Shown here in pieces: positions 7,981 to 60,231 of a stretch of DNA of 64,000 bases. The notes under the pieces were generated by a model. The model was not told the DNA's origin and did not search any database. It was given only the letters and a program-made list of their open reading frames with translations. The position numbers were made by a program, and so were the translations under genes. Each line of letters begins with the position of its first letter. Within the stretch, counting starts at the first letter, position 1. This DNA comes from Salipiger pentaromativorans (GTDB taxonomy: Bacteria; Pseudomonadota; Alphaproteobacteria; Rhodobacterales; Rhodobacteraceae): assembly GCF_024721115.1 (NCBI RefSeq), contig NZ_JAMDHK010000002.1:248001-312000 (forward strand). Reading direction: 5' to 3'.

Positions 7981-8751
7981 ATGAAAAAACTGATTCTCGT
8001 CGTGATCGGCCTGGTCGCTCTGGGCGGCGTCGCCTGGATGATGAAAGGTGTTCCGGGCGTCGAGCAGACGCCGACGGCGGAGGCGGCCGATGACGCGGCA
8101 GCGACGGTGACCGAAACCGCCGATGAGGCGGCGCAAGCGGCCGAAGAGGTTGCCGATACGGCGGCGGAGACCGCCACCGAGGCGACCGAGGGGGCGGCCG
8201 AGGCCGTGACCGAGGCCGCAGAGGCTGCAACCGAAGCCGCGCAGGAGGCCGTCGAAAGCGCCGGCGAGGCGGCAGAGGCCGCCGTGGACGCCGCCACCGA
8301 GGCAGCGCAGGACGCGGTGGACACTGCGACCGAGGCCGCCGGCGAAGCGATGGAGGCGGTGACCGACGCCGCTGGCGATGCTGCCGCTGCGGCGGATGAG
8401 GCGGTGGAGGCGGCCACCGAAAGCGCCGCGGAGGCCGTGGAAGCCGCAACCGAGACCGCGAATGAGGCGGCAGAGGCTGCGAGCGAGGCTGCCGGCGAGG
8501 CGATGGATGCGGCGCAAGGCGCATTGGAGAGCGTGACCGGCGCCTCCGAGGCGGCAACCGACGGCTCCGGGATCGGCGAGCTTCTGACCGTCGACGGCTT
8601 CGATTACGACAAGGTCATCGACTACGTGGACCAGTCCGAGCTGAGCCCGATGATCAAGACCACCACCAAGGCCACGCTGCAACAGGTCCGCGACAATCCC
8701 GAGCTGCTGAAAGCGACGCTCGACAAGCTGCGCGAGCAGCTCGGCCTCTAG
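7981..8751 (+). CDS. Alanine/glutamate-rich repeat protein with N-terminal membrane segment
   Basis: Not recognised as a named family. The 256-residue product starts [19 protein letters not shown], a signal peptide or membrane anchor. Residues about 35-195 are a low-complexity run of Ala, Glu, Thr and Asp ([16 protein letters not shown] units, roughly 11-residue periodicity), expected to form long amphipathic helices like apolipoprotein or LEA proteins. A short C-terminal region (about 200-256) is not low complexity: [22 protein letters not shown], then a helical [20 protein letters not shown]. The frame is open further upstream, but the Met-Lys-Lys start has GAGG about 10 bases before it. 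An envelope or stress role is a guess from composition only. Confidence 0.75.
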
Positions 8752-56101: not shown

Positions 56102-56185
56102 TTATCCACAGAAATTATTCTTCTGTGGGTAAGCAGAATTTTGATTGTTTCAGGTCTTCTTAGCGGTGTCTTTGCATGTGGATAA
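56102..56185. promoter_or_regulatory. Cluster of DnaA boxes in an AT-rich intergenic region
   Basis: TTATCCACA at 56102-56110 and its inverse TGTGGATAA at 56177-56185 match the high-affinity DnaA box exactly. A third, inverted, TGTGGGTAA, at 56124-56132 differs at one base. The first two form an inverted repeat (TTATCCACAGAA / TTCTGTGGGTAA) with a seven-base spacer. The region between xthA and the repeat-protein gene (55974-56290) is markedly more AT-rich than its surroundings. Confidence 0.6.
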
Positions 56186-56290: not shown

Positions 56291-56878
56291 ATGACCGCTC
56301 AACTTAAGCACGTAATCTCTGAAGAAATTCTTGATGATCGCGGCGCCGATCTGTTCGGCGGCGACGCGGTGGAAATGTTCACCTCGGGCGCCGCGCCGAT
56401 GGCACAGGGCGATGCGCTTCTGGGCGATGCGGTCGAGATGTTCACCTCCGGTGCCGCACCGATCTCCAGCGCCACAGCCCTCGGCGACGCCACGGGTCTC
56501 TTCACCTCGGGTGCCGCACCCATGAGCACCGCCGCGCTGACCGGCGACGCCGTGGAAATGTTCACCTCGGGCGCCGCACCGGTGACCTCCGATGCCTCGC
56601 GCGGCGATGCGGTGGAAATGTTCACCTCGGGTGCCGCTCCGATGACCTCCGACGCCTCGCGCGGCGATGCGGTGGAGATGTTCACCTCCGGTGCCGCTCC
56701 GATGACCTCCGATGCCTCGCGCGGCGACGCGGTGGAAATGTTCACCTCGGGTGCCGCTCCGATGACCTCCGACGCCTCGCGTGGCGATGCGGTGGAGATG
56801 TTCACCTCGGGCGCAGCCCCCAAAGGCACCCGTGCCGCCGCCGGCGAGGCCACCGGTCTCTTCACCTCGGGCGCCTGA
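56291..56878 (+). CDS. Protein of nine 20-residue tandem repeats (GDAVEMFTSGAAP)
   Basis: A 195-residue product of unknown function. The first 23 residues (MTAQLKHVISEEILDDRGADLFG) form a leader. Nine copies of G[DE]A[VT][EG][ML]FTSGAAP follow at residues 24, 45, 65, 85, 105, 125, 145, 165 and 185, with spacers such as MTSDASR; the last copy ends in FTSGA at the stop codon. Spacing is 20 residues except 21 between the first two. Units five to eight are nearly identical, while synonymous differences separate their DNA. No signal peptide or membrane segment is visible. AGGGGA stands 8 bases upstream of the start. Precursor peptide, surface coat or protein scaffold are possible guesses. Confidence 0.8.
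   Translation: MTAQLKHVISEEILDDRGADLFGGDAVEMFTSGAAPMAQGDALLGDAVEMFTSGAAPISSATALGDATGLFTSGAAPMSTAALTGDAVEMFTSGAAPVTSDASRGDAVEMFTSGAAPMTSDASRGDAVEMFTSGAAPMTSDASRGDAVEMFTSGAAPMTSDASRGDAVEMFTSGAAPKGTRAAAGEATGLFTSGA
56360..56875 (+). repeat. 60-bp tandem coding repeat
   Basis: Nine units averaging 60 bp, best conserved between about 56585 and 56820. Differences between neighbouring copies are mostly at third codon positions. Confidence 0.9.
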
Positions 56879-56950
56879 TCGTCCGATGACCAAGCTGCGG
56901 GCGTCTTGGGGATGAGACGCCCGCCTGCGCAGAGAAGGGAAAGGCCCGCC

Positions 56951-58012
56951 ATGACCAATGTGATCGCGCTCCGCCCCAAGGCCCGTGTCGCGGCGCCCGA
57001 AACCGGCGCCGCCGCCTTGCTCTCGAGCTTTGCCGCCTGCCGCCGCCGCGAGGACGATGTCTTCTGGCTCAAGGAAAACGCCGAGCTGCTGAACATTCTC
57101 GAATGCACCGGCGCCGAGGTCGCCCCCGAAGCGCTTGCGGTGCTGCGGGGCTTTTACGACACGGTCGAGGACCGGCTGGCCTTCTTCCCGCAATACTATC
57201 GTTTCCTGATTTCGATCGCGCTCGATCTGGAAGACCTGGGCATGCCCGGCGACACCGGCGTGCGGCTGACCGAACGCGCGGCGCGCGAGGATTTCGCCGG
57301 CGCGGAGCTGTCGGACCTGCAACGCATGGAGGCGCGGCGTCTGCTGGCGCGGCGCGGGCAGGCGGGTCCGGCGGATACAGCGCTCGAGGACCGGCTGCGC
57401 GCCTTTTGCGCCCGGTCGCAGACCTTCGCTCTGCCAAACAAGAAAGCCGCCTATGAGCTGACCCATATTGTGTTCTACCTCAGCGAGTACGGGCGCCGCG
57501 ACCCCGGTCTTGACGAGAAGACGGTAACCAGCCTGCATTTCGCCGGCAACCTGGCATTTCTTGATCAGAATTCGGACCTTCTGGCCGAAATCTGCATCGC
57601 GCTGTGCTATGCGGGCGAGACGCCGCCGGCGCTCTGGACCGCCTGGCTCACGCGGGAGACTCACCTGTTCTCGGTGGAACAGGGCGAGGGACTCTCGGTG
57701 GCCGACGATTATCACGACTTCCTCGTCTGCAACTGGCACGCGGCGGTGAGCGGCGCCACGCCGTTCCGCAAGCCGCTTGCGGCCGAGCGGATGCGCTTTA
57801 CCCGGTCGCAACGCAGCGCGGCGCCGCTGCGCGAGCTGTCCGAGGCGCTGTTTGCCGAAGGCGCGGCGCGGCGTCCCGACTGGGCGGCGATGCGGGCGCG
57901 GATGGGCGCGCGGCTGTCGGCGCAGACGCTCGACGTGGTCGATACGCTGGCCGGGCAATCGGCCCATTTCGACGCCTTCTTCGAAGGCTTCGCCCGCGCG
58001 GGGCGGGGATGA
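56951..58012 (+). CDS. Unrecognised 353-residue protein next to the repeat protein
   Basis: A mostly helical, cytoplasmic-looking protein (MTNVIALRPKARVAAPETGAAALLSSF..). No signal, membrane helix or catalytic motif is recognised; segments such as EDDVFWLKENAELLNILECTG, FFPQYYRFLISIALDLEDLG and NKKAAYELTHIVFYLSEYGRRDPG are distinctive but unknown to me. A GAAAGG lies upstream of the ATG at 56951; the earlier ATG at 56906 gives an unlikely basic extension. It follows the repeat gene by 72 bases on the same strand and is translationally coupled to the exporter gene. Confidence 0.8.
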   Translation: MTNVIALRPKARVAAPETGAAALLSSFAACRRREDDVFWLKENAELLNILECTGAEVAPEALAVLRGFYDTVEDRLAFFPQYYRFLISIALDLEDLGMPGDTGVRLTERAAREDFAGAELSDLQRMEARRLLARRGQAGPADTALEDRLRAFCARSQTFALPNKKAAYELTHIVFYLSEYGRRDPGLDEKTVTSLHFAGNLAFLDQNSDLLAEICIALCYAGETPPALWTAWLTRETHLFSVEQGEGLSVADDYHDFLVCNWHAAVSGATPFRKPLAAERMRFTRSQRSAAPLRELSEALFAEGAARRPDWAAMRARMGARLSAQTLDVVDTLAGQSAHFDAFFEGFARAGRG

Positions 58013-58887
58013 GCGCGGCGCGCAGCGCTCTGGCCGGCGCCGGGCTGGTGGCGGTCTATACCGGCGCCATCGCCGCGGCGGACGGCATCACCAAGCTGAT
58101 CGCCGGCGGCTATGCCGCGCCGCAGCTCTTTGCGCTGTCTTCGGGGCTGGTGATCCTGCTCTCGCTCGTCGCCGCGCGCAAAAGCGGCGAGGGGCTGCGC
58201 ACGCGCTGCCGGGGCACGATGGCCTTGCGCAGCCTGCTGACGGTGCTGGCGGCCATCGGGTTTTTCCAGGCCTTCCGGCTGCTGCCCTTCGCCGATGTCT
58301 TCATCTTCATCGCGCTGATGCCGCTGATCGCGGCAGCGCTGTCCGGCCCCGCTCTGGGCGAGCCGGTGCGTCCGGCGGTCTGGCTGGCGCTGACGCTTGG
58401 CGCCGGCGGGCTGCTCTGCCTGATGCCGGCGGGGCATTTCGCGGTCGATCCCGGCCATCTCTGGGCGCTCTTCGCGGTCTCGACCGGGACCGGCTCGATG
58501 GTGGCCGCGCGCTATATCGCGCGGATCGAGCGGGTGCCGCTGGCCCAGGTCTTCTGGCCCAACCTTGCACTCATGCTTTGCATGGGCGTGGCACTGCCCT
58601 TTGTCTGGCAGCCCATGGGGCTGGCCGATCTGGGCTGGGTCGCGGGCTATGCGCTGTTCCTCTTCGCCGCGCGCTGGCTTTGTGCCGAGGCGCTGCGGCT
58701 GCTGCCCGCCTATGTGGCGACGCCGCTGATGAACCTGCAATTCGTCTGGATGGTCGCCATCGGCTGGTGGGGCTTTGGCGAACTGCCGGGGACGGGCACG
58801 ATGCTGGGCGTGGCGCTGGTGATCGGCTCGGGCCTGTGGCTGGTCGCCGACGAGGCGCTGCCCGAGCGCCGCGCCGCCCGCGCCTGA
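58009..58887 (+). CDS. EamA/DMT-family transporter
   Basis: A 292-residue protein of the drug/metabolite transporter superfamily, with about ten hydrophobic segments and two EamA repeats (first half FFQAFRLLPFADVFIFIALMPLIAAALSG; second half LRLLPAYVATPLMNLQFVWMVAIGWWGFGELP). Such proteins export small metabolites or amino acids. Its ATG overlaps the stop of the upstream unknown gene (ATGA), implying coupled translation and a functional link. Confidence 0.88.
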   Translation: MSAARSALAGAGLVAVYTGAIAAADGITKLIAGGYAAPQLFALSSGLVILLSLVAARKSGEGLRTRCRGTMALRSLLTVLAAIGFFQAFRLLPFADVFIFIALMPLIAAALSGPALGEPVRPAVWLALTLGAGGLLCLMPAGHFAVDPGHLWALFAVSTGTGSMVAARYIARIERVPLAQVFWPNLALMLCMGVALPFVWQPMGLADLGWVAGYALFLFAARWLCAEALRLLPAYVATPLMNLQFVWMVAIGWWGFGELPGTGTMLGVALVIGSGLWLVADEALPERRAARA

Positions 58888-58995: not shown

Positions 58996-60231
58996 ATGTC
59001 CGCCACGCTCGCTGTCGATTTCGGAACCTCGAACTCCGCTGCCGCGCTGCTGGAGCGCGGAGAGGTGCGGCGCATCCCGCTCGAACCCGGGGCCGAAACC
59101 CTGCCCACGGCGGTCTTCTTCCCGGCCGAGGGCGGCGCCATGCGCATCGGCTCCGCCGCCGCCGAGGCGCTGATCGCGGGCGAGGACGGACGTTATATGC
59201 GGGCGCTGAAAAGCGTGCTGGGCACGCCGCTCTTTCACGAAAAGCGGCTGATCGCCAAGCGCCGCCGCACCCTGGCCGAGATCGTCACCGCCTTTCTGAT
59301 CGAGGTGAAGACCCGCGCCGAGGCGCAGACAGGCACGCCGCTGCGCCGGGTGCTGTCGGGCCGCCCGGTGCATTTCCACACCTCCGACACCGAACGCGAC
59401 GCGGCGGCGATTGCCGATCTGCGCGGCTGCTACGAGGCGGCGGGGTTCGAGGAGGTGGATTTCCTCTTCGAGCCGGAGGCGGCGGCGCGCGCCTGTCAGG
59501 AGACCGACCGCCCCGGCGAACTGGGGCTGGTGGTCGATATCGGCGGCGGCACCTCGGATTTCTCGGTCTTCCGGGCCTCCGCGCAGGGCATCGAGATCCT
59601 GGCCTCGCACGGCATCCGCCTCGGCGGCACCGATTTCGACCGTTCCGTCTCGCTTGGCCACGCGATGCCGCTGCTGGGGCTGGGCGGGCAGTTGCGCCGC
59701 CCGCTGGGCGAAGGGCTGCTGCCGGTGCCGCGGGCGCTGTTCGTCGATCTGGCGACCTGGGCGATGATCCCGTTCCTTTATACCGCCGAAACCCGGCGTT
59801 CCGCCCGCGAGATGGAGCGGCTTGCGGTCGAGCCGCAAAAGCTCGGGCGGCTGGCGACGGTGCTCGAGGACGAGCTGGGCCACGAGCTGGCCTTTGCGGT
59901 CGAGCGCGGCAAGATCGCCGCCAATGGCGGTGCGGCGGGGGCGGTCATCGACATGGGGGTGATCGAGACGGGGCTGTCCGCGCCGGTGAGCCCCGGCTCG
60001 CTGGCCTCGGTGCTGGGCGAAGCGGGCGAGCAGTTGCGCCACGCGATGTTCGAGACGCTGTTCCGTGCCCAGGTGGCGCCGGCGCAGATCGGCGCGGTGG
60101 TGCTGGTGGGCGGGTCGAGCCTCATGCATCTGGTGGCGGACGAGGCGCGCGCGGTCTGCCCCGGTGCGCGGCTGCGCCGGTCAGAGGCGTTTACGGCGGT
60201 GATCGACGGTCTGGCGCTGGCCACCGCCTGA
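58996..60231 (+). CDS. Hsp70/DnaK-family ATPase without substrate-binding domain (YegD-like)
   Basis: A 411-residue actin-fold ATPase. Phosphate 1 loop is LAVDFGTSNSAAALLE; the second phosphate region is LGLVVDIGGGTSDFSVFR, and the adenosine motif VLVGGSSLMHLVADE occurs near the C-terminus. The protein ends soon after the nucleotide-binding domain, so the DnaK peptide-binding domain is absent. YegD is an E. coli relative of unknown role. AGGAGG stands before the ATG. It is 108 bases downstream of the EamA gene. Confidence 0.85.
   Translation: MSATLAVDFGTSNSAAALLERGEVRRIPLEPGAETLPTAVFFPAEGGAMRIGSAAAEALIAGEDGRYMRALKSVLGTPLFHEKRLIAKRRRTLAEIVTAFLIEVKTRAEAQTGTPLRRVLSGRPVHFHTSDTERDAAAIADLRGCYEAAGFEEVDFLFEPEAAARACQETDRPGELGLVVDIGGGTSDFSVFRASAQGIEILASHGIRLGGTDFDRSVSLGHAMPLLGLGGQLRRPLGEGLLPVPRALFVDLATWAMIPFLYTAETRRSAREMERLAVEPQKLGRLATVLEDELGHELAFAVERGKIAANGGAAGAVIDMGVIETGLSAPVSPGSLASVLGEAGEQLRHAMFETLFRAQVAPAQIGAVVLVGGSSLMHLVADEARAVCPGARLRRSEAFTAVIDGLALATA

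Follow-up and report, generated by a model that had tools for sequence, protein, structure and literature searches.

The window analysed here is a stretch of 64,000 nucleotides from Salipiger pentaromativorans, a member of the Rhodobacterales (contig NZ_JAMDHK010000002.1, forward-strand positions 248,001 to 312,000). Its segment 56291-58887 forms a three-gene operon on the + strand, composed of a repeat gene, a gene for a DUF6902 protein and a gene for an EamA-family transporter. The features of the operon, in window coordinates, are as follows.

56291..56878, + strand: candidate multi-core precursor (195 residues), with a leader of about residues 1-23 followed by nine units of 20-21 residues; no Pfam or NCBIfam family above cut-off
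56291..56359, + strand: leader-like N-terminus
56378..56392, + strand: core 1, FTSGA (cores 1-9 located in the sequence)
56441..56455, + strand: core 2, FTSGA
56501..56515, + strand: core 3, FTSGA, with the variant flank GDATGL
56561..56575, + strand: core 4, FTSGA
56621..56635, + strand: core 5, FTSGA
56681..56695, + strand: core 6, FTSGA
56741..56755, + strand: core 7, FTSGA
56801..56815, + strand: core 8, FTSGA
56861..56875, + strand: core 9, FTSGA, with the stop codon next (56876-56878)
56951..58012, + strand: DUF6902 protein (353 residues), a DUF6895 relative by profile match; predicted (alpha/alpha)6 toroid and candidate peptide-modifying enzyme
58009..58887, + strand: EamA-family transporter (292 residues), overlapping the DUF6902 stop in an ATGA; optional operon member

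The first-pass annotation of this DNA had described the first gene as a leader and nine units of one sequence, the last of them ending at the stop codon. The layout and the nine FTSGA cores stand, but only seven units of the nine match GDAVEMFTSGAAP exactly; unit three reads GDATGLFTSGAAP, and unit nine, GEATGLFTSGA, runs into the stop. The cores follow each other at 20-21 residues, and Tandem Repeats Finder scores the array at 492 and 532 with periods of 60 and 180. For the leader, an 18-row alignment shows M1 and A3 to be invariant, with K6 conserved at 90% or more. The repeat gene is single-copy in its own genome, where a second match is its own antisense strand. A protein search with the repeat protein as query gave 6 matches among 1209 candidates, hypothetical where named.

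Pairing of the repeat gene with DUF6902

Scanning species genomes, we obtained 336 DUF6902 relatives and kept the best 80 as loci. A multi-core open reading frame (ORF) lies directly upstream of DUF6902 in every one of these best 80 loci (75 ORFs found by script and five, in L009, L040, L041, L052 and L056, by eye; L009, L014 and L019 are partly masked). Between the repeat stop and DUF6902 lie 36-137 bases, except in L054 (342 bases) and in the masked L014.

We also surveyed 292 genomes of the order, a sample that overlaps the best 80 loci, since both come from species collections, and in which related genomes are not independent of each other. DUF6902 was matched in 81 of them (35 of 112 genera), in 80 above the curated Pfam cut-off of 27 bits; a match below the cut-off, in G177, was set aside and shows no repeat ORF on inspection. 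The first-pass annotation had proposed to check co-occurrence across the order, and this bears out its expectation for the first two genes: with the window repeat protein as query, 67 genomes gave a repeat-gene match and all 67 are DUF6902-positive, while the 211 genomes in which DUF6902 was not matched gave none. The same query recognises 80 of 80 extracted relatives locally, and its genome search missed 12 divergent ones. Among the remaining 13 above-cut-off genomes, 12 carry a divergent small ORF with at least two cores by eye, TTGC, VSAS, TTSC, SSTC, TSSF and PTSN being among these cores. A repeat ORF therefore stands beside DUF6902 in 79 of the 80 above-cut-off order genomes, in 12 of the 79 as judged by eye.

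Two single records are worth mentioning. In G150 (L115 and L141), DUF6902 is broken into five pieces and the repeat ORF is shortened, so that both genes seem to decay together. The record of L069 is labelled Enemella evansiae, which is an actinobacterium, yet it carries a rhodobacterial block of xth, repeat gene, DUF6902, EamA and iron-sulphur (Fe-S) gene and is probably mislabelled. Searching the open-access literature, we found no paper on the repeat-gene/DUF6902 pair and no match for four core strings.

Cores are uniform within a gene and switch as a block

Units were counted in 74 of 81 genes, leaving out three masked genes and four with an incomplete start. The number of units varies from 4 to 20 (median 8), as the first-pass annotation had thought it might. 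Defining units by their flanks only (G six residues before and P six residues after), we obtained 506 units, from the 66 genes that contain three or more of them. A single 4-mer core is shared by all units in 64 of these 66 genes, while 22 different 4-mers occur between genes. The two exceptions are L042, with one odd unit, and L059, with two core types. The same test applied to the two flanking 4-mers found uniformity in 0 and 1 of 66 genes. When cores were located by their flanks, the first core equalled the last in 67 of 74 genes, where shuffling gave a mean of 9.1 and a maximum of 19; on reading the seven mismatches, six come from the pattern slipping out of register and that of L059 is genuine. 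As a separate observation, the repeat gene of L074 holds both FTSGS and FTTSA cores.

The codons point the same way. Third-position differences between the repeats had already been noticed in the window, and they are confirmed here: the core codons vary at third positions only, with a proportion of nonsynonymous differences (pN) of 0 and of synonymous differences (pS) of 0.27-0.29, against a spacer pN of 0.50. Over 78 genes, the within-gene pN/pS is 0.08 for the core (core pS 0.48), 0.43 for the flank and 0.83 for the spacer, the core value being biased low, as units were partly picked by their core; the flank-only test is unaffected by this. Core codons are thus under purifying selection, and spacers are nearly free of it. 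Gene conversion was rejected as the sole cause of uniform cores, since the spacers are unlike and the core codons differ synonymously. It may contribute to the uniformity.

Between genes, we count at least 30 changes of core label among 81 genes on a quick DUF6902 tree. Support is weak for 33 of the 78 inner branches of this tree, and partly masked genes supply three of the 81 labels. L055 and L060 make the clearest pair: their DUF6902 proteins are 96% identical and their leaders differ hardly at all, while all units read FSSGS in one gene and FTSGS in the other. Matching between core and enzyme as the cause of uniformity is weakened by this pair. Because DUF6902 hardly differs while all the cores switch, the constraint that keeps the cores alike probably comes from the product and not from their fit to the enzyme.

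DUF6902, its relatives and the gene surroundings

The 353-residue protein had been called unrecognised. In fact, it matches Pfam DUF6902 (PF21843) over profile positions 1-351 of 351, with 532.5 bits and an E-value of 5.5e-160. Its second match is DUF6895 (PF21836; cut-off 23.8 bits), at 82.9 bits and an E-value of 3.3e-23, through residues 28-232 and profile positions 19-238 of 289. By profile score, the protein is a relative of DUF6895 and not a typical member, the score lying far under that for DUF6902. The predicted fold is an (alpha/alpha)6 toroid, whose even helices are 77-95% conserved and odd helices 51-69%. Y168, H172, D209 and E213 are invariant, distant DUF6895 proteins included, and the motif Yxx[T/S]H...DxxxE is present in all 92 sequences examined, 11 of which are distant and DUF6895-type. 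A sequence profile search of the PDB with DUF6902 gave no convincing relative (one MarR row at an E-value of 0.64). Foldseek with the DUF6902 model gave no match at E ≤ 0.001, its weak matches including armadillo and tetratricopeptide repeat (TPR)-like proteins. The Pfam scan showed no ATP-grasp family in the DUF6902 protein, and PLSDB plasmids gave no match to the window protein.

DUF6895 itself was matched in 13 of 398 genomes of the phylum, of which seven are DUF6902 genes and two (L104 and L105) fall below the cut-off and were set aside; in 3 of 145 genomes of a second order, one of them already in the phylum set; and in four plasmid records. In the order of G395, 1 of 150 genomes carries it, G395 itself. 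Reading by eye, we find a small ORF directly upstream of DUF6895 in 9 of 10 loci outside DUF6902; in the Streptomyces fungicidicus locus, the small ORF is non-adjacent. Several of these small ORFs, again by eye, begin with a leader like SGLID...TLxQL followed by a W- or Y-rich stretch. G395, G470, G624 and G878 visibly show a core-like stretch twice, either inside one ORF or as two paralogous ORFs, and the core is hard to make out in G018 and G800. Eight DUF6895-side small ORFs that were scanned show no Pfam or NCBIfam family above cut-off.

Some of these loci have features of their own. In G395 (L093, 751-2388), two paralogous small ORFs with the core-like stretches VGRWYVYVG and VGPWFVLAG precede DUF6895, a candidate two-peptide system from an order other than that of the window. 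The Kitasatospora and Streptomyces plasmids (L126 and L128) carry a DUF6895 protein of about 580 residues beside a small ORF with the leader SGL[IV]D and the core-like GYVLAW[DE][KR]YVLVV, and a polyketide synthase gene lies 3-6 kb away. The Kitasatospora candidate precursor has seven homologues, hypothetical where named, one of them also labelled FAS1 domain-containing. On the Pseudalkalibacillus plasmid (L127, 6670-7317), a second protein, encoded after DUF6895, contains the stretch QQPDGTFG, in line with a toroid fold; we take this stretch to resemble the QW motif of terpene cyclases.

Downstream of DUF6902, the EamA call and its overlap were both right: the gene starts at 58009, overlapping the DUF6902 stop, and matches PF00892 with 45 bits in two stretches (cut-off 28.2 bits). 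An EamA relative comes just after DUF6902 in 61 of the 80 loci, and L013 has a partial match slightly further on. The 18 loci without EamA beside DUF6902 (L013 being uncertain) are all 15 of the Marivita clade, where an Fe-S gene directly follows DUF6902, together with L007, L079 and L082. EamA is thus an optional operon partner, since only 61 of 80 loci, and none of the 15 Marivita-clade loci, have it. On the upstream side, xth is present in 76 of 80 loci, and the other four end too soon. A PF01521 Fe-S gene is found downstream in 65 of 80, and in the close Salipiger-type loci L004-L014 there is none within reach. In the window, a 411-residue Hsp70-like protein (58996-60231) sits between the EamA and Fe-S genes and is matched only in L003 among the 80 loci. 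Far from the operon, tandem arrays with 21- and 33-base units lie at window positions 8193-8468.

Upstream of the operon, the window contains two copies of a pattern, TTATCCACA, that is presumably a DnaA box.

56102..56110, + strand: perfect putative DnaA box TTATCCACA, by pattern match
56177..56185, - strand: second perfect putative DnaA box, read on the + strand as TGTGGATAA, by pattern match

Across 73 loci, 82 perfect boxes fall within the 260 bases that precede the repeat gene and 2 in the remainder of these loci; the densities are 4.3 per kb and 0.0017 per kb, respectively. They cluster near -110 and at -160 to -200. At least one is present in 53 of 74 loci, and none in L008 and L058, for example. 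The window genome (39 contigs, 5.28 Mb) holds 14 perfect boxes against 18 for a backwards control pattern, and the boxes at 56102 and 56177 are its sole pair within 1 kb. The idea that the boxes belong to the neighbouring xth is unsupported: 11 loci around xth orthologues, from 10 genomes where DUF6902 was not matched, taken with about 1.5 kb on each side of xth where the contig allows, contain 0 perfect boxes.

A proposed peptide system and its alternatives

A leader-plus-core gene adjoining a candidate enzyme, the two conserved jointly, is the gene layout of a ribosomally synthesised and post-translationally modified peptide (RiPP), the modifying role of DUF6902 being what we infer. We consider it probable, at roughly 65%, that the repeat gene and DUF6902 are a RiPP-type multi-core precursor and its dedicated modifying enzyme, with peptide release, export and a role for the product. 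The first-pass annotation had suggested a precursor, a partner and an exporter working together. Repeated cores and a dedicated partner gain from the pairing, the 4-20 units, the lineage-specific uniform cores and the kinship with DUF6895; the exporter does not hold as a fixed part, given EamA in 61 of 80 loci.

In such a system, the repeat gene would yield a cytosolic precursor with a short leader and nine near-identical core units. DUF6902 would bind it and modify each core inside the cavity of its helical toroid. The likeliest chemistry may be backbone L-to-D epimerisation, with acid/base catalysis by His172 (with His255) and Asp209/Glu213. We favour it, tentatively and at somewhat less than even odds, for three reasons: the kinship with DUF6895, the lack of any one side chain common to the cores throughout the wider family, and the presence of invariant His, Asp and Glu residues that would be apt for acid/base catalysis. 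Proteases encoded elsewhere in the genome would next free numerous copies of a single small peptide from each precursor, and the product could be exported, via the EamA transporter where its gene is present. Once released, the peptide would probably work as a single defined molecule, such as a signal or recognition peptide, because all cores of a gene change together between lineages while the enzyme stays nearly the same.

Known systems resemble parts of this proposal. A DUF6895-family lasso-peptide epimerase is the subject of Shi et al. (ACS Catal 2026), going by the title as cited in PMC13352647. DUF6902 scores 82.9 bits against that family and keeps the Yxx[T/S]H...DxxxE of the DUF6895 genes read here; it differs in being its own Pfam family, in having a partner with 4-20 cores in the genes that were counted and in having no lasso gene recognised nearby. 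According to the excerpt of PMC10406935, MslH is a metal-dependent epimerase of the lasso peptide MS-271 with a calcineurin-like fold. Like MslH, DUF6902 would, in the model proposed here, epimerise a ribosomal peptide by acid/base catalysis with His and Asp residues; its predicted fold is all-helical, unlike that of MslH, and we claim no homology. Multi-core precursors served by one enzyme are known and are described as rare in the excerpt of PMC5934393. There, the microviridin pair AMdnA/AMdnC likewise has one leader, several cores per polypeptide and one dedicated enzyme, but the enzyme is an ATP-grasp ligase, the products are macrolactones and the cores number three (PMC5934393).

Several results weigh against the proposed precursor and enzyme. 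G117 (L134) keeps DUF6902 and has neither an upstream repeat ORF nor a genome-wide repeat-gene match, the sole exception to the pairing. The operon is an accessory trait, as its distribution across the order has many gaps (it occurs in 81 of 292 genomes, belonging to 35 of 112 genera) and G159, a genome of the same genus, is without DUF6902. No peptidase was found among 12 scanned window neighbours (48.7-62.6 kb), and EamA is missing beside DUF6902 in 18 of 80 loci. Beside the DUF6902 and DUF6895 genes that were read, we recognised no gene for a lasso peptide: no lasso precursor and no B or C enzyme was seen among the 12 window ORFs or in the annotation of the four plasmid DUF6895 loci, the other loci being read by eye. 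Two core types share one gene in L059 (FCSWS and FSSLS) and L139 (FVSGL and FCCSI). The downward bias of the core pN/pS and the weak branches and masked labels of the tree, both given above, count on the same side, as does an AlphaFold2 model of the array, which places regular strands at the cores in a low-confidence beta repeat (predicted local distance difference test, pLDDT, 55; predicted template modelling score, pTM, 0.48).

One alternative keeps precursor and enzyme and changes the chemistry. A LanC- or prenyltransferase-beta-like toroid enzyme would modify Ser, Thr or Cys in the core by dehydration, cyclisation, prenylation or another side-chain reaction. LanC-type cyclases, prenyltransferase beta subunits and class II terpene cyclases are alpha/alpha toroids; a shared fold proves no function, and their identity to DUF6902 is 5-15% in the rows shown. 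We regard this chemistry as unlikely, with odds that lie partly within those of the preferred explanation.

The main rival gives the repeat protein a structural, self-assembling role, as a beta-solenoid or functional-amyloid-like protein with one rung per 20-residue unit and matched, stacked cores, and makes DUF6902 a chaperone, binder or modifier. Curli and other functional-amyloid repeat proteins are built from tandem units of about 20 residues. The repeat protein shares this trait, with units mostly 20 or 21 residues apart, and differs in having no Pfam match above cut-off. Stacking ladders would also need identical cores that change together, and the strands of the array model fall at the cores. 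However, that model is of low confidence, units may also lie 8 or 13 residues apart, certain genes contain no more than 2-4 of them, and W, C or P is tolerated in the core between lineages. Reading the N-terminus, we noted no secretion signal (a signal-peptide program was not run), and the distant DUF6895 partners seem by eye to carry a single core or a pair, which would not suffice for a solenoid. Taken together, this makes a structural protein improbable. A multivalent binding scaffold, decoy or regulator, in which the repeats titrate DUF6902 as a non-enzymatic helical peptide binder, is highly improbable: toroid and helical-repeat folds do also bind peptides, the weak Foldseek matches include armadillo and TPR-like proteins, and the pairing is nearly strict, but the Y, H, D and E residues that stay invariant on alternate helices resemble those of a catalytic or metal-binding site, and matching to a DUF6902 that barely differs between L055 and L060 fails to explain the uniformity.

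Returning to the RiPP-type precursor and enzyme, the putative DnaA boxes make it worth asking whether replication sets the timing of the product. Going a step beyond the evidence for a modified peptide, a rather unlikely but specific version is lineage-specific peptide recognition, where a DnaA-linked precursor would deliver up to 20 copies of one modified, possibly D-residue peptide, whose four-residue identity switches as a block between species and gives them private chemical identities. Fungal pheromone precursors offer a comparable case of peptide copies that switch as a block.

If the proposal is true, Rhodobacterales would possess an undescribed multi-core peptide family, with the predicted all-helical toroid of DUF6902/DUF6895 as its modifying enzyme. 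RiPP-like logic is known; the enzyme family, the core number and the block switching are unusual. With at least 22 natural core variants on related leaders and enzymes, the family would be useful for learning what a peptide-modifying enzyme requires, and it presents a clear case of repeats that are held identical and yet switch as a block.

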